Shown piece after piece: positions 1 to 17,309 of a DNA stretch of 61,711 nt. The DNA lies in contig DTTI01000076.1 of the NCBI GenBank assembly GCA_012964825.1, positions 1 to 61,711 of the forward strand, given 5' to 3'. Under the pieces are notes generated by a model. The model was not told where the DNA came from. It made no database searches and saw only the letters and a list, made by a program, of their open reading frames with translations. Numbering within the stretch: position 1 is the first letter of the stretch; each line of letters starts with the position of its first letter. Position numbers and translations under genes: made by a program. This DNA comes from Candidatus Neomarinimicrobiota bacterium (GTDB lineage Bacteria; Fidelibacterota; Marinisomatia; Marinisomatales; S15-B10).

Positions 1-2261
1 TTGGCTGGGTAGGAGATAAAACTTCTGAGTGCGAGGCAGGTTGCGAAAACGGGCAGGAAATCACTTTAGCACAAGATACACCCGTAGATCTCACCTATTC
101 CTGGACCTTACAGGACGCACCGACCGGCACGTCCTGGGACCCAAACAACATGGTTATTTTTGCCTTTATTCAGGATTTTACGGCTCTAGCAAAGGTTAAT
201 AATCAAATTGTAAATGAACCATCAATACTCCAGGGTGTAAAGATGGTAAGAAGAGGTGCAGGAATAGATAAGTCGGCACCGGCCTTAACGTTCAATCCTT
301 ATAATAATCAATTTGGCGTTGCTGTGAACAGTGAAATTACAATTACCTTTGACGAAAAGATCCGTAACGTGGATGACTCTGCCTTGGATGACACCAATGT
401 GGGCTCTCTTATCACCCTGAAGAAGAATGATGCTACCGGAGATGATATCTCCAAAACTGTGACCATTAACAGTGACAAAACCCTTATTACCATCAACCCC
501 ACTAATGATTTTAGTGCTGAGCAGAGGGTCTATGTAGCCATAGGCGCCACTGTGGAGGATGAAGCTGATAATGCCATCCAACCCGTAAATATTACCTTTA
601 CCACGGTGGATAACACGGCGCCTACAGCCACCATCGTTCCGGCGGATGCCGCAACAGGGATCGCGCCCAGTTCTAACATAACGATCTCTTTTAACGAGCC
701 GGTGCGGAAGACCGATGATTCAGCTCTTGATAATTCAGTAGTCACCTTGAAAAAAACCGATGCCAGTGGTGACGCCATCGCTTTCACAACTTCTGTCGAT
801 GCCGCCCAAAAGGTTATAACCGTAACACCCAGCAGCGGTCTTGGGAGCTCACAAACAGTTTATGTCTGTGTCAATGGTGTTGAAGACAATTCAAACAACG
901 CTCTTGCCGAAACCTGCGCCACATTTACCACTGCCGATGCTGACGCCCCCACCGTGAACATGAATCCACAGGATGGAGCCACAGATGTGGCAGTGGACAC
1001 AGAGGTAACACTCACCTTCAGTGAAACCGTCCGCAACGTGGATGACAGTGCCTTGGATGACGACAATGTGGACGCTAGTATCACATTTAAATATGAAGAT
1101 GCCAATGGTTCTGACATCCCCTTTGACGCCACCATAGACTCCGATAAGAAGATTGTGACTCTTGCCCCTGATAGCAACCTTGATAATGAAAAGAAGGTCT
1201 ATGTAGCCATAGGCGCCACGGTAGAAGACGCCTCAAATAATGCAGTCTCAGCAACCAGTGCCACATTCACAACTGTCGCAGTCGGGAATACACCTGTTAT
1301 CTCAGCCGTAAATGACACGGCATTTGCCGAAGACAGGTACGGTACTGTAAATGTCATCGTTACGGACGCTAATGGTGACAATATAACATTCTCAGTCTCT
1401 GCTGACACATCCGCTGTAGAAGCCACTGTGGAGGAGAGCAATTCCATTTCCAGTACCCAGTGGCTTGCAAAAATCAAGCTCAAACCTGAAAAAGACTGGA
1501 ACGGGGAATCTGTGATCACGGTTTTTGCAGATGATGGAACCCTAAAGGTTAGTCGCAATTTCAAGTTAACCGTATATCCTGTAGATGATGCACCATCACT
1601 ATTTGATCTCACAGAGCCGATGAATGGTGCTTTAATAAAGATTACAGATCAAACATTCAATGACACTCTGGTCTTCAAATGGACGGCTTCCACAGATGCC
1701 GAGGGTGACACCATCGAGTATAAGTTCAGTGGGACCTGGGGCCTAGCTGCATTGAAGGTTCCTTATGTAAAAAACGCAACAGAAACCAAAATAGCATATG
1801 CTGATATTTATGCTGCTATGGACCAGAGCGCGCTTAGCCACTGGACTGATGAATCGGAAATGACAGGGGAATGGGGTATAGGAGCCTGTGCAGGTATGTA
1901 CTGCGTACCACCAGGCAATGGCCCATACGAACTAACTATTTATGAAAATGTATTGTCCCTCACGGACAATGCGGAACTCCCTAATAGATTCGATCTTCAC
2001 CAAAACTACCCGAATCCATTCAACCCTGTTACTTCCATCAATTACCAGCTGGCTGGCGACGCTCAGGTAACATTGACCATCTATGACATTATGGGGCAAA
2101 AGATCCGTACTGTTGTAAATGAAAACCAGTCTTCGGGTTTTCATTCAGTTTTATGGGATGGAAAAGATAATTATAATAATCCTGTGAGTTCCGGAGTGTA
2201 TATTTATCGAATTCATGCGGGTGATTATATCCAAACCCGGAAAATGATCCTCATGAGATAA
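1..2261 (+). CDS. Secreted Omp28-like protein with Ig-like domains and C-terminal sorting domain (5' truncated)
   Basis: The reading frame is open from base 3, so the true start lies left of the window; about 752 residues are visible. The first ~85 residues (with WDPNNMVIFAFIQDF) look like the end of an Omp28/thioredoxin-fold module, because the same context precedes the repeats in the next gene. Three Big_5/SbsA-type Ig-like domains follow (each with an ITFDEKIRNVDDSALDD-like strand and ending ITFTTVD), then a cadherin/tandem-95-like segment (NDTAFAEDRYGTVNVIVTDA) and a fibronectin-like segment. The last ~85 residues are a sorting domain starting NYPNPFNPVTSINYQL and ending YIYRIHAGDYIQTRKMILMR, as used in FCB bacteria for type IX-like export and surface anchoring. 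It is probably a cell-surface or secreted structural or adhesive protein. It is a tandem paralogue of the next gene, 28 bp away, likely in one transcript. The substrate or partner is unknown. Confidence 0.85.
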   Translation, partial: GWVGDKTSECEAGCENGQEITLAQDTPVDLTYSWTLQDAPTGTSWDPNNMVIFAFIQDFTALAKVNNQIVNEPSILQGVKMVRRGAGIDKSAPALTFNPYNNQFGVAVNSEITITFDEKIRNVDDSALDDTNVGSLITLKKNDATGDDISKTVTINSDKTLITINPTNDFSAEQRVYVAIGATVEDEADNAIQPVNITFTTVDNTAPTATIVPADAATGIAPSSNITISFNEPVRKTDDSALDNSVVTLKKTDASGDAIAFTTSVDAAQKVITVTPSSGLGSSQTVYVCVNGVEDNSNNALAETCATFTTADADAPTVNMNPQDGATDVAVDTEVTLTFSETVRNVDDSALDDDNVDASITFKYEDANGSDIPFDATIDSDKKIVTLAPDSNLDNEKKVYVAIGATVEDASNNAVSATSATFTTVAVGNTPVISAVNDTAFAEDRYGTVNVIVTDANGDNITFSVSADTSAVEATVEESNSISSTQWLAKIKLKPEKDWNGESVITVFADDGTLKVSRNFKLTVYPVDDAPSLFDLTEPMNGALIKITDQTFNDTLVFKWTASTDAEGDTIEYKFSGTWGLAALKVPYVKNATETKIAYADIYAAMDQSALSHWTDESEMTGEWGIGACAGMYCVPPGNGPYELTIYENVLSLTDNAELPNRFDLHQNYPNPFNPVTSINYQLAGDAQVTLTIYDIMGQKIRTVVNENQSSGFHSVLWDGKDNYNNPVSSGVYIYRIHAGDYIQTRKMILMR

Positions 2262-2289
2262 CCCTCTTGCTTTTACCAAAAGGAGCCCA

Positions 2290-4104
2290 ATGATCCATAA
2301 AAGACATTTCTATTCATCTCTCCTGGTCCTGGCGATATTAGCCTCGAGCCTTGGGGGAGCAGTGAAGAAAAGTGCCCTTGGTGAGCTGCTCACGGCCAGC
2401 AACTGACCCGGCTGCCCTACGGCCAACCGGGCGTTGGACCATTATCTCGATCCTGCACACAGTGACTACGTTGGGGATGACCTGGCTGGAAACTGGGTAC
2501 TGATTCGTTTTCATTCCAATGCTATTGGATGGGGAGATCCTATGTACCATGCCATAGGCTCACCCGAGTTTGCTTCTAAGTGCGACGAAGATCCTGTATG
2601 TTATCGATTTGGCGGCTCTGAGAGCAGTGACGCCCCTTACAGCCCCGGATATCTACCCACCCTCTATATTAATGGAGTGTCATCCACAAGCACCGAAGCA
2701 TACAAGACAGACGCCACGGCCATGCGGGACGCGGAGACTGCTGTTACCATGTCTCTGGAAGGGACAACCTTTGACAGTCTAACTGCAAATATAAAACTTG
2801 CCATTTCCAGTGATGAGGATCTTTCTGGACAGGATTTGCGTCTTTTCGTTGCCGTAACAATGGATTCTATTGCTTATAACGGTTCTAACGGTGAAACGGA
2901 ACATCATGATGTATTTCTCGGCTGGGTAAATACCTACTTTGGTGGTGATACACTTATCCTGGCTAAAGATGATACAGTGAAAAAGACTTACCAGTGGGCT
3001 CTAAGGGGTGATTATCCTAAAAACAGCTATTTCCCCAAAGATGATTCTGAAATGACACAGGTCACCTGGGATAAAAAAAACATGACAGCTGTGGCTTTTG
3101 TACAAAAAAAATCAGACTATGAGATTCTTCAAGTCGTCCAGTTGGCTCGGAAAAATGCTTCGCCATCTACCAACACCGCCCCTACAATATCCACCATCAG
3201 TGATCTTACCATTAATGAGGATGAGACCGGCACGGTTGAGCTCTCAGCCACCGACGCGGAAAATAATGCTATAACTTTCTCTGCTACATCTTCCACATCA
3301 GAATCAGTTACAACCTCTATTTCAAGCAATACATTAAGTATTGTACCCGCGGCTAACTGGAATGGTGAGTCAACCATTACTGTCACTGCCAGCGATGGTA
3401 GTCTCACTTCATCGACCTCCTTCAAACTGACCGTAACGGCTGTAAATGATGCTCCAGCTGTATTCGATCTGGAGAAACCTATGAACAACGCCTCCGTAAA
3501 GATCACCAATCAATTAATCGGTGATTCTCTAGAATTCTCGTGGAGAGCTTCGTCAGATGTGGAAGGTGATGACATCACTTATCTATGGGTGGGTTCTAAC
3601 GGCCTGGATAGTGTAAAAGTGGCAAGCGTGAAAAACACCACTTCCCTAACCATTACCTACAGCGTACTTCATGACGCTATTGATTGGTCAGAAAATTCAG
3701 AAATATCAGGAAGCTGGACCATCTCCGCCACTGATGGTATCGTCCATACTCAAGCCTCAAACGGGCCCTACACGTTGACTTTAAGTGACAAAGTCCAGGA
3801 TGTTTCCGGTGAAAATCTTCAACCATTAGAATTTTCCCTTCTACAGAATTATCCCAATCCCTTCAATAGCGGTACAACAATCAACTATATACTGCCTGAG
3901 AACAGTGATGTTGAAATTGTGATTTATACTCTACTTGGGCATCCTGTGAAGACTCTTGTGAATAAGAGAGTTAACAGTGGATTTCACGCCGTCAGTTGGG
4001 ACGGGAAGGATGATAGCGGGAATACCATCAGCGGGGGCATTTATCTTTACCGAATTCGGGCGACGAACTTTACAGCCGTCCGAAAGATGCTCTTGTTAAA
4101 GTAA
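2290..4104 (+). CDS. Omp28/thioredoxin-like secreted selenoprotein (UGA at codon 39) with sorting domain
   Basis: ATG 2290 has AGGAG seven bases upstream (2281-2285) and is followed by a signal peptide (MIHKRHFYSSLLVLAILASS). The frame meets TGA at 2404-2406 (codon 39) and continues open for 566 codons to TAA at 4104. Around the TGA the protein reads LGELLTASN-U-PGC-PTANRALD: the TGA takes the first Cys of a CxxC motif in a thioredoxin-like Omp28 domain (roughly 30-280). Next come a cadherin-like domain (NEDETGTVELSATDAENNA), a fibronectin-like segment and a C-terminal sorting domain (NYPNPFNSGTTINYILPENS to the end). A hairpin with the geometry of a bacterial SECIS lies at 2421-2440. I infer selenocysteine insertion, giving a 604-aa secreted redox protein with a U-x-x-C centre. 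The alternative is a nonsense mutation, but the TGA falls exactly on a redox Cys position and a second case occurs at 13168-14319. Gene callers would start wrongly at 2434 and lose the signal peptide and active site. Confidence 0.8.
2421..2440 (+). promoter_or_regulatory. Putative bacterial SECIS hairpin for UGA 2404-2406
   Basis: GGCCAAC (2421-2427) pairs with GUUGG-CC (2433-2437, 2439-2440) with A2438 bulged. The apical loop is CGGGC (2428-2432), with G at its second position. The loop starts 21 nt after the UGA. Published bacterial SECIS models ask for a small apical loop with a G among its first two bases, about 16-37 nt downstream of UGA; this fits. A competing 5-bp stem (CCCGG 2407-2411 with CCGGG 2427-2431) also exists. 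The fold was done by eye. Confidence 0.6.
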
Positions 4105-12232: not shown

Positions 12233-12679
12233 TCAAACAGATTTCGGAAAAAGCTCCATTGTTTTTTCTTCCCGGCGCCAGATGAGTACGGACATGGCAA
12301 GCCAGACGATATCCCTTGCCAGAGTATCTAAACCAACTGTTGATCCTTCGGGTTTGAAACAACCGCAATCGATGTCCAAACCCCTGGCCACTGCCTGACC
12401 CAACGCAATGATGAACATAACCATCATTCCCGTGGAAAGAAGAGCCGCACCATCAACAAAAACACCAAGTATTAGGCAGGAGCCTACATATAGCTCCACC
12501 CATGGCAAAACAATGGAAAAGAGATTCGTAATACCGTATGGCAGCATCTGGTAGTTTTGAATATTGCCGGCAAAACTCCCAGGATTACGAATTTTCTCAA
12601 AACTGGCGTAGAGGAAAACAATGCCGAGAATAATTCTTAAGGCAAAAATGACCCAGCTGTTTTTTAACAGTGAAACCAT
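12233..12679 (-). CDS. MauE/DoxX-family membrane protein with DCGC motif
   Basis: 148 residues with about four membrane helices (WVIFALRIILGIVFLYASFEKI; LFSIVLPWVELYVGSCLILGVF; STGMMVMFIIALGQAVA; DIVWLAMSVLIW). The DIDCGCFKPEGS loop carries the paired cysteines typical of MauE-like DoxX proteins, which are linked to disulfide or thiol chemistry in the envelope. Its ATG directly follows the TAG stop of the rhodanese gene. It is the third gene of the selenoprotein operon (13168-14319, 12680-13171, 12233-12679). I infer that it passes electrons or thiols across the membrane for the periplasmic partners; this is not shown by the sequence alone. The last gene end is 53 bp from tRNA-Gly. Confidence 0.82.
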   Translation of the reverse strand: MVSLLKNSWVIFALRIILGIVFLYASFEKIRNPGSFAGNIQNYQMLPYGITNLFSIVLPWVELYVGSCLILGVFVDGAALLSTGMMVMFIIALGQAVARGLDIDCGCFKPEGSTVGLDTLARDIVWLAMSVLIWRREEKTMELFPKSV

Positions 12680-13171
12680 CTATTCCACCGGGTAACCTGC
12701 TTCGATCCACTGGGGAAGCCCGCCGTCAAATACGAACACACGGGCAAATCCCCAATCCTCTCCCATGAGCTCCATGGCGAGGTCCATACTCAGATCGCAC
12801 TCCCCCCCGCCACAGTAGGCCACAACAGGATCATCTTCCGTAACCCACCGCAGAATCTCACCTGGATATGCTGGAGCAAGTTTTGACCCGGCAATATGCC
12901 CTTCCCTGAATTCCTTATCGTCCCGTGCATCGATAAAAAGTACTCCGCGATCATAGAACGCCTTAGCAATTGCGAGATCAATCATGACAGGCTGAAAAAG
13001 CAGAGTTGTCTGAGCCAAAAGTGAATCTACAGCGGACTGCCCGCCCTCTATAATATGTTTGGAAGCGATCAGAGGGAGCCCGTCATTACGGACCGCATTG
13101 AACCCGAAAGAAAATAAAAATGAAACTGCCAATATTATGGCAGACTGACCCATTGATGTATTGGTGTTCAA
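12680..13171 (-). CDS. Membrane-anchored or periplasmic rhodanese-like sulfurtransferase
   Basis: About 163 residues. An N-terminal hydrophobic segment (SAIILAVSFLFSFGFNAV) suggests export or anchoring; the rhodanese domain is ~60-160: VLFIDARDDKEFREGHIAGS (CH2A-like), active-site loop YCGGGECDLS with the nucleophilic Cys, and VFVFDGGLPQWIEAGYPVE at the end. Rhodanese proteins carry sulfur as a persulfide. The apparent start is TTG 13171, overlapping the stop of the selenoprotein gene (TTGA); ATG 13153 is an alternative that still precedes the signal sequence. It sits between the selenoprotein and the MauE protein without gaps, so the three should act together in envelope sulfur or selenol redox chemistry. 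Confidence 0.88.
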   Translation of the reverse strand: MNTNTSMGQSAIILAVSFLFSFGFNAVRNDGLPLIASKHIIEGGQSAVDSLLAQTTLLFQPVMIDLAIAKAFYDRGVLFIDARDDKEFREGHIAGSKLAPAYPGEILRWVTEDDPVVAYCGGGECDLSMDLAMELMGEDWGFARVFVFDGGLPQWIEAGYPVE

Positions 13172-14319
13172 GAACCGGTGGGTTTGCCATTTGACGCTTT
13201 GGCCAACTGATCACACGCTGTCAGGGTCTTGGTGATCATACCTAGCATCTGCGGTTCATCATCGAGAGATCTGCCCATGGCAGGAAAATCGAACCGGGTG
13301 GAGTTGACCACACCGGCCAGCTTCCCTTGTGTCTCTTTCAGTGCTTCCCTGATCTGTACGATACGGTCCAGCATTGGTGGCTGATCCGCGTAAATTTCAT
13401 CCAGAGATTTTGATGGCTCATCCTTATTCATTCTTTCAAGCTGACGTTGGATAAAATCTTCCTTCAGCTTCAGCTCAGTGATATCCGATAACGTCATATC
13501 AGGATTCTCAACGGCCAGTGTGAGCATTGCCAGCGCTTTACCCTGTTTCCCGAGCCGGTACATCCTCGGCCCGGTTGCGGGGTTTTTCATCTTGCCGACG
13601 GGGTTGTGCGTATCACCGCTGATGAACATATAATCAGCTGTTGCAAATTTGGGACGGTAAAACACTGCCTCTTCATAGGTGCCGTTGAACAGGACGATTT
13701 GGAAATCACTCTTTTCTTCCAGTTCCGCCAAAATATTGTTGACGCTAGTTTCCACATCCGCCAAGCCCACAGTTTTCAGTTCAACAGGAAGAGACACTGT
13801 AGCACCGGTAACACCAAAGCTGAAGGACGACCGGTCAAGCACCACGTAGGGCTCAAAAAGAAGATTCCCTGACTCATCAGTGATGTTGGAGGATATAAAC
13901 GGGAAGTTGGCCAATTGCTCCATCTGAAGAACAAATTCTAGTCCCGCCGCAAAATCCTTGGAACCCATGTTGAGGGCGTCACAACCGATAATGTTGAATC
14001 CTGAGATCAGCGTTTCTGAACGCAGTTTGGACTGTTCTGCGTTAAGTTCTGTTGGATACTGCTTGTCAAAAAAGACATCTCCAGCATCTATGATGACCGG
14101 ATCAGCACCTTCTTCCCTGAGATTGCTTATAAATGTTGCTTTACGGGGCAGACCGCCCGTGGGATTGCGTTTTCACCCACAGGGGTCAAGCTGACTGTGA
14201 ACGTTACCGGTCACAATCAGCATGGCCGATCCTGTCTTTGCAGAGGAGGTACTACAAGAATAGGTAATTAGGCCAATTGATAGAAAAGTCAAACATGTTG
14301 TGAATAGGTTTTTCTTCAT
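13168..14319 (-). CDS. UshA-like metallophosphatase lipoprotein, probable selenoprotein (UGA at codon 49)
   Basis: ATG 14319 opens a frame with a lipoprotein-type signal (ITYSC, Cys22), runs through TGA 14175-14173 (codon 49) and stays open to TGA 13168, 383 residues. Before and after the TGA it reads TGNVHSQLDPCG-U-KRNPTGGLPRKATFI. Metallophosphatase relatives that I recall carry PCGC followed by a GGLARRA-like stretch here, so the TGA replaces the second Cys of the motif. Further 5'-nucleotidase-type motifs are IIDAGDVFFD (~76), NMGSKDFAAG (~117) and ISGDTHNP (~235). Some metal ligands are substituted (N for D in the first motif; no NHE/FD), so phosphatase activity is doubtful. A strong SECIS-like hairpin follows at once. 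It is first in an operon with a rhodanese and a MauE protein. A gene caller would keep only 13168-13968 and lose the signal, lipobox and CGU centre. Confidence 0.85.
14143..14160 (-). promoter_or_regulatory. Putative bacterial SECIS hairpin for UGA 14175-14173
   Basis: On the minus strand ACGGGC (14160-14155) pairs with G-CCCGU (14149, 14147-14143) with C14148 bulged, closing a GGUCU loop (14154-14150). The loop begins exactly 18 nt after the UGA. The E. coli fdhF SECIS, as I recall it, also presents GGUCU 18 nt after its UGA, bound by SelB. This is the strongest single item for selenocysteine insertion here. The fold was done by eye. Confidence 0.75.
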
Positions 14320-15047: not shown

Positions 15048-17309
15048 ATGGACGGTGGTCAAATACGCCTTAAGACCTCCCTATATTCCTGTACTTTGTT
15101 TCTCTCAATTCTGGCGGCCCAGAATATTACTGTTGATGGAACCGTAATCAATGGAATTACAGGAGAAGCCATTAGTGGTGTGAATATATTTGTGGCCGAC
15201 AGTGATTTGGGCGTTGTATCAAATACAAACGGCAGTTTTACACTTATAATTCCCGATTCTCTCAGGATGAGGGAAGTTGTCTTTACATATATGGGTTACA
15301 GACGTCAGACCATTCCCTCCACCGAGATAAAGAGACAAACTGTGATCCGACTGGAGCCCACGGTCATACCAATGCAGCAAGTTGGGGTAATCGGAACGGA
15401 GAGAAGTTTGGAGATTCAGAAAGACATTCCCCAGCCCATTTCTGTCATTGAATCTAAAGCCTTTGAACTCAGGGGTTATACAGATGCAGGTGACCTTCTG
15501 CGGACTGACCATACCATTCAGCTGAATGAGAACATCAGTGGAAAAAAGACAGTTAACATACGTGGTGGCAACGCAGATGAGGTAGCCATTCTTTATAACG
15601 GTGTTAGAATGAACAGTGAATTCGATAATATTTTCGATATTGCCCTTGTAGACCTTCAAAATATTGATCACCTGGAAGTGATCCGGGGGAGCAACTCAGT
15701 TCTGTATGGAACGGAAGCATTCTCTGGAATCATTAACATCGTTCCGAAACTGGTTCCTGAAAAGACACTTTCGTTCAGCCAGCACCTCGGCACCTATCAG
15801 TCAGGCAGATGGTCTGCCCACATGGGAAAGAAATTTGACAAATTCAGCTCCGCCTATAACCTAAACCGCGGTGCATTTTTTCGTCAATTTGAAGGAGGAG
15901 ACAGCGGCGAGTCCCTTGAGAATAATTCCGAGCAGCACAATCTAACGTTCACATATCTTTTGGATGAAAACAATCCGAGCAAGCTCGGGAATTTGTTATC
16001 ATCCACACTTTTATTTTCACGCCGGTCGTATAAGGACCACCGTTTAAACGATAGCGTGGAGAACGAGAACATGGTAACGACCATGCGCTATTCAGGCGCC
16101 GTGGGCCCCTTTCCGGCAGTTTCAGCAACAGTAAGTCAGCATCAGATCAGCGAAGACCAAAATCTTACTGCCGAAACCGGGAATTTGGACAGATTTCTTA
16201 AGAGCAGTTCCAACCGGTTTTCATTCAGATCAACGAACACACTTAAACCATTGGAGACCACTTCTGTTTTTCAATTGGAGCAGTCGGACTTGGACTACCG
16301 TGATAACCGTTCTTTTTCTGACATCCAGCAAGTTGGGTTGGAAAGTGCGCTGTTCTCCCGCATGAAAATCGGAGCTGCCGTTGTCACAAAATTTTATTTG
16401 TCGGATAGGGATGAAGGTACCCGATTTTCCGATGTCAGCGTCAGTGTGCGGCGCGATAGAATTATTGACAAACAGGGAGAGGCAGTTCTCAGGGGAGGAG
16501 TTGATAATCCTGAACTGGCTGATTTAGGCCTCTTTGATACAAGGTCATGGGATAACACCATCGTGAAATTTTCCACATCGTTGGCCGGCGGCAGTGAAAA
16601 GTTCGCTTTGCGTTCTTACTTCAATTTTGGTACCAGTTACAAATATCCCACCCTGCTTCAGCAGATCAGCGGCACAATATTAGACGGGACTCCTTCTGCC
16701 TTTTCCGCACTAAACCCTGAGAAGAATCAAAGTTTTGAATTGGGACTTCATTCCTCGAGACTGATCACAGGTTCGGAAACTCTGGATGCTTTCGATATGA
16801 CGGTAAACCTTTTTCGAAACGATTATGAGAACAAAATGCGTATCAGCTATCCCATCGGAATTCCAGTAGCTTTCTATGACAATGTTGATTTTGCCAAGAT
16901 TAGCGGTTATGAAATAAAGGGCACCATTCACCTGCTCAACAGATCAACTTCTGCAGATTTGGCCCTGGCCAGTTACAATATACCGGAAAAGGCCGCCTTC
17001 CCCTTCAAATCAGAAGTTAAGATGACAGCTAATCTGAATGTCGACTATAAGGGCTGGTCACTCCAGGTCCACGCTTTTGGCGAAAGTGAACAGATTGGCT
17101 GGATGCGGCAAGATCTAGGTCACCTCTTTGAAGTGACACTTCCTTCCCACACAAATGTGGATGTCCATTTGACTAAATCAATTCAGCTGAGAAATCTGGA
17201 AGGGTTCGCCAATTTCAGCGGATACAATCTCCGCAATCAAAGTACCATTTTAGAAGGACTTATCCTTCGTGACAGGCGCATCTATTTCTCATTTGGATTC
17301 AAACTGTGA
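15048..17309 (+). CDS. TonB-dependent outer-membrane receptor with CarboxypepD-reg domain
   Basis: 753 residues. A signal-like segment (SLYSCTLFLSILAAQ) is followed by a CarboxypepD-reg-like domain (~28-108: DGTVINGITGEAISGVNIFV, VVFTYMGYRRQTI), a plug (~118-235: KDIPQPISVIESKAFELRG, KTVNIRGGNADEVAILYNGV, VIRGSNSVLYGTEAFSGIINIV) and a 22-strand-type barrel to the end (RRIYFSFGFKL). Such receptors import iron chelates, cobalamin or glycans across the outer membrane with TonB energy. The next gene is a lipoprotein starting one base after its stop, so the pair may form a receptor-plus-surface-lipoprotein system. No SusD-like domain is evident there. The substrate is not identifiable. Confidence 0.92.
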   Translation: MDGGQIRLKTSLYSCTLFLSILAAQNITVDGTVINGITGEAISGVNIFVADSDLGVVSNTNGSFTLIIPDSLRMREVVFTYMGYRRQTIPSTEIKRQTVIRLEPTVIPMQQVGVIGTERSLEIQKDIPQPISVIESKAFELRGYTDAGDLLRTDHTIQLNENISGKKTVNIRGGNADEVAILYNGVRMNSEFDNIFDIALVDLQNIDHLEVIRGSNSVLYGTEAFSGIINIVPKLVPEKTLSFSQHLGTYQSGRWSAHMGKKFDKFSSAYNLNRGAFFRQFEGGDSGESLENNSEQHNLTFTYLLDENNPSKLGNLLSSTLLFSRRSYKDHRLNDSVENENMVTTMRYSGAVGPFPAVSATVSQHQISEDQNLTAETGNLDRFLKSSSNRFSFRSTNTLKPLETTSVFQLEQSDLDYRDNRSFSDIQQVGLESALFSRMKIGAAVVTKFYLSDRDEGTRFSDVSVSVRRDRIIDKQGEAVLRGGVDNPELADLGLFDTRSWDNTIVKFSTSLAGGSEKFALRSYFNFGTSYKYPTLLQQISGTILDGTPSAFSALNPEKNQSFELGLHSSRLITGSETLDAFDMTVNLFRNDYENKMRISYPIGIPVAFYDNVDFAKISGYEIKGTIHLLNRSTSADLALASYNIPEKAAFPFKSEVKMTANLNVDYKGWSLQVHAFGESEQIGWMRQDLGHLFEVTLPSHTNVDVHLTKSIQLRNLEGFANFSGYNLRNQSTILEGLILRDRRIYFSFGFKL

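Follow-up and report, generated by a model that had tools for sequence, protein, structure and literature searches.

The window, that is, the whole analysed stretch of 61,711 nucleotides, carries on its minus strand a gene for an UshA-like selenoprotein, followed by genes for a membrane-anchored rhodanese and a MauE/DoxX-like membrane protein (Table 1). Translated with TGA as selenocysteine (Sec, U), the first of these frames contains a single internal TGA and itself terminates with TGA, in agreement with an earlier note on this DNA, which had described one frame free of other breaks; the context of the Sec codon, LDPCG-U-KRNPTGGLPRKA, is likewise the one read there. The lipobox of the encoded protein, TYSC, is weak, if plausible. 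The TTG start of the rhodanese gene overlaps the stop codon of the selenoprotein gene, and an alternative ATG start is located at 13153. A gene for a TonB-dependent receptor (15048-17309, plus strand) is divergent from the selenoprotein gene, with a tRNA-Ala gene in between; this linkage is kept in a genus mate (locus L059) and is absent from the other contexts searched.

Table 1. Features of the selenoprotein locus in the window, and the SelD gene found elsewhere in the same genome
Feature	Position	Strand	Remarks
UshA-like selenoprotein gene	13168..14319	-	383 residues, Sec49; stop codon 13170-13168
UGA selenocysteine codon 49, motif PCGU	14173..14175	-	TGA kept in orthologues; TGT/TGC in Cys forms
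SECIS hairpin	14143..14160	-	Loop GGUCU at 14154-14150, one bulged C
Membrane-anchored rhodanese	12680..13171	-	PF00581; conserved neighbour; active-site loop YCGGGEC
MauE/DoxX-like membrane protein, DCGC motif	12233..12679	-	PF07291, PF07681; invariant CGC; conserved neighbour
SelD (L045, G000:C28, own genome)	1396-2448	-	TGA in motif GUACK

The conserved SECIS of the fdhF type at UGA codon 49, together with a complete set of SelA, SelB, SelD and tRNA-Sec, makes it virtually certain that this is a genuine selenoprotein gene and that the TGA is its selenocysteine codon. The source genome, 2.2 Mb on 84 contigs with a completeness of 97.6%, comes from a Marinimicrobia-type bacterium and encodes all four components, with the UCA anticodon in tRNA-Sec, and its SelD is itself a Sec-containing protein. 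Codon 49 is TGA in 38 orthologues from the same order and in others across the phylum; 14 families of this order, as well as further classes, have orthologues with the TGA. In a first search of 41 genomes, nearly all full-length orthologues had exactly one in-frame TGA, which in the sequences read lies at the codon equivalent to Sec49. A phylum-wide search, the phylum being the scope of our homologue sampling, recovered a homologue in 189 of 245 genomes, with one TGA in most homologues among the matches listed; a scan of genome contigs found one relative, a Candidatus Marinimicrobia metagenome-assembled genome. The earlier note had held that absence of the sel genes, relatives with neither Cys nor TGA at this codon, or a read error would speak against selenocysteine; the sel genes are present, relatives carry TGA or TGT/TGC, the latter supporting Cys homologues of the PCGC type, and a read error is excluded because independent genomes carry the TGA.

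The hairpin directly 3' of the UGA, ACGGGC-GGUCU-GCC(C)CGU, pairs ACGGGC with GCC(C)CGU and presents its GGUCU loop 18 nt after the UGA, with the position, loop and spacing reported previously. The likeness to the SECIS of Escherichia coli fdhF, which the earlier note had pointed out, proved accurate when checked on that gene: both have TGA, 18 nt and then the GGTCT loop, whereas the stem sequences differ and the proteins are unrelated. The codons GGC GGT CTG (Gly-Gly-Leu) are identical in all 38 Sec genes of the order, whereas in the rest of these genes GGC and GGT account for 15% and 35% of Gly codons and CTG for 14% of Leu codons, so that the conservation of the hairpin exceeds chance. In addition, hairpin columns 18 and 30, which both fall on third positions of codons, are paired in 39 of 39 sequences through five pair types. 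Thus, the hairpin is conserved as RNA, even at silent sites, with covariation. For an origin of the TGA by pseudogene formation, sequencing error or a change of code, the bare in-frame TGA is the sole point in favor; the identical TGA in dozens of independent genomes led us to reject all three, as did the conserved SECIS, the Sec machinery and the use of TGA as the terminator of the same gene. This reading is already refuted by conservation and has a negligible probability, in line with the earlier judgment that a random nonsense mutation is a poor explanation.

Selenocysteine has been exchanged with cysteine in some lineages, and three Sec/Cys changes are needed on the tree. Members of genus g19, which have reduced genomes, carry TGT (Cys) at codon 49 along with varied Gly and Leu codons, and have lost the SECIS sequence; SelB exceeded the cut-off in none of the eight tested g19 genomes holding the gene. 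Outside g19, a full-length SelB is also missing from genomes G002, G004 and G026, the last two of which have pieces of it at contig ends. The idea that Sec gives way to Cys only where the machinery is lost was considered and rejected, because SelB is retained in G191 and G197, both of which have the Cys form. The G197 gene (L143, G197:C40) has TGC, with a hairpin GGC-GGTCTT-GCC still downstream, and looks like a recent Sec-to-Cys change. Such switches provide a natural comparison set. In family f7, two loci (L086, G057:C37 and L087, G034:C45) encode second Sec-containing copies without the lipobox Cys.

Although the earlier note was aware of no described selenoprotein of this kind, the family has in fact been listed: UshA-like selenoproteins (COG0737, motif CxU), with 76 sequences from the Global Ocean Sampling dataset, were reported in 2008 (PMC2398784), are repeated in two reviews (PMC9312934 and PMC13188914), and have an NCBIfam model, NF041198, "UshA-like (seleno)protein". 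In the literature searched, we found no function for the family. The window protein shows UshA-type similarity and has Sec in a CxU motif, and NF041198 is its nearest NCBIfam model, matched over positions 6-384 of 519 with 165.2 bits, below the curated cut-off of 275 bits for this equivalog; no score above 275 bits was obtained in any of 61 related genomes. It shares with the described proteins the UshA-type fold, the Sec of the C-x-U motif in the same N-terminal loop (PCGU) and a bacterial SECIS, but is devoid of the C-terminal part of the model, which in a paralogue from the same genome is a multihaem segment. This paralogue (L055, G000:C24, minus strand; 534 aa) has the Cys motif NCLC, a multihaem (CxxCH) segment on the C-terminal side and an end resembling LysM, and matches NF041198 in two pieces, the UshA-like domain and the haem part (model positions 345-518). 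The window protein thus belongs to this known family, as a short, lineage-specific form that lacks what the curated model has in its C-terminal region. Because members of the order score under the NCBIfam cut-off, automatic annotation probably truncates them.

The AlphaFold2 model of the protein (42 homologues) has a mean pLDDT of 90, and Foldseek matched it to the UshA and CD73 5'-nucleotidases with E about 1e-19. The term metallophosphatase used in the earlier note thus stands as far as the fold is concerned, but not for the metal ligands, which are unconserved, nor for profile matches, as no Pfam model, Metallophos included, matches the protein. The alignment with solved nucleotidases sets their TDLHS against TGNVHS and their GNHEF against GSKDF. 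All 42 homologues have N or S in place of the DxH Asp, the His of the same motif varies between H, R, F, N and Y, the GNH positions vary, and the distal His region is unconserved; of the ligand motifs of active enzymes (DxH, GD, GNH, H and GHxH), only GD is mostly kept. As a ligand control, four presumed canonical nucleotidases were scanned for motifs; this was only partly informative, an appropriate DxH motif appearing in three of them. By contrast with these ligands, C47, G48, U/C49, G55, G56, L57, R59, D78, G80, F84, G112, N117, G119, G126, F141, S143, N145 and G172 are invariant, including the motif CG[U/C]..GGL.R around Sec/Cys. From this pattern, we infer that the canonical di-metal site has been lost, which we regard as highly likely, and that the CGU loop is under selection. 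Partial retention of D81 (34 of 42 homologues) and H41 (21 of 42) counts against a complete loss. Given the loss of metal ligands and the invariance of C47-G-U49 and GGL.R, the protein is probably not an active metallophosphatase. It has the fold of UshA and CD73 but differs from them in its unconserved metal ligands, in the Sec/Cys loop and in lacking such a substrate-binding C-terminal domain.

The gene neighborhood is constant. Wherever the sequence of a locus of this taxonomic order extends far enough, in 26 of 26 cases, the genes run UshA-like gene, rhodanese, MauE; two further loci stop at contig edges and fall outside this count. No other neighbor is conserved across families in the loci of the order. 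Family f16, which belongs to the same class, has the arrangement rhodanese, MauE, UshA in 4/4 loci. That the association occurs in two different gene arrangements speaks for a functional link among the three genes rather than for inertia. Cysteine motifs are kept in all three proteins, namely CG[U/C], YC-x4-C in the rhodanese and CGC in MauE. The constant operon of the UshA-like gene with rhodanese and MauE is new here, the literature searched containing no description of it, and this conserved, reshuffled operon combined with the lost metal site offers a first testable role for a family listed since 2008 and suggests that the name "UshA / 5'-nucleotidase" is misleading. In distant lineages, the rhodanese and MauE genes are together but apart from the UshA-like gene in five of the six loci examined; in L145-L149, from distant lineages of the phylum, this pair forms an operon of its own.

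Considered jointly, these observations are best explained by an UshA-like selenoprotein with a decayed metal site and a sulfur/thiol redox role together with rhodanese and MauE (probability about 0.6). The 5'-nucleotidase fold without its di-metal site would act as an inert support, in the cell envelope, for the redox pair Cys47-Gly-Sec49, and this pair may react with sulfane sulfur or a disulfide. Judging from the sequences, the chances are nearly even that this envelope selenol protein takes part in a sulfane-sulfur or disulfide/thiol relay. In such a relay, the Cys47-Sec49 pair would exchange electrons or sulfane sulfur with the rhodanese, as a persulfide on the Cys of the YCx4C loop, and likewise with the MauE/DoxX-type protein, whose CGC pair could relay electrons to the membrane or from it, linking the CGU pair to the quinone pool or a thiol pool. 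More tentatively, the three proteins might constitute an undescribed selenium-dependent envelope module, in which the decayed 5'-nucleotidase fold acts as the selenol redox protein and sulfane sulfur or electrons are handed on by way of the persulfide of the rhodanese and the CGC pair in the membrane. Against a relay, the UshA-like gene of other classes is unlinked to the rhodanese-MauE pair. The protein can also work without MauE, given that g19 keeps the Cys form while MauE is found in 0/8 of the g19 genomes with that form. An argument from the loss of MauE along with Sec and SelB is weakened, because the reduced g19 genomes have lost many genes.

Two other roles have to be weighed against a redox function. 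An active SoxB- or UshA-like metallo-hydrolase, with Sec/Cys as ligand or nucleophile acting, for instance, on groups such as thiosulfonate or persulfide that the rhodanese handles, would accord with the predicted fold, the invariant D78 and G80, the largely retained D81, and profile matches of the 42 homologues, all of which match UshA models and 40 of which weakly match the SoxB model. It is nevertheless improbable in view of the substitution of the DxH Asp in every homologue, the variable His and GNH positions and the missing Metallophos match. The SoxB thiosulfohydrolase (TIGR04486) belongs to the same superfamily, and the rhodanese suggests a sulfur context, but the match is weak only, the metal site is not intact, and no SoxYZ or SoxXA genes were seen adjoining.

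MauE has a membrane maturation role for methylamine dehydrogenase, and the CGU motif might accordingly bind a soft metal, such as copper, or assist maturation of an envelope protein with MauE as the membrane partner. A CxU pair could indeed bind soft metals, MauE is a maturation protein by name, and the DoxX-like HvfX is a copper-RiPP maturation protein, although its match here is weak. We consider this unlikely, as the rhodanese constant in the operon points to sulfur and no conserved client gene adjoins the loci examined. Elsewhere in the window, a TGA at 2404 on the plus strand has a GC-rich hairpin downstream, and the reading frame through this TGA is open for 49 codons on its 5' side and for 565 codons beyond it; the TGA probably lies shortly before the 2434-4104 frame begins.
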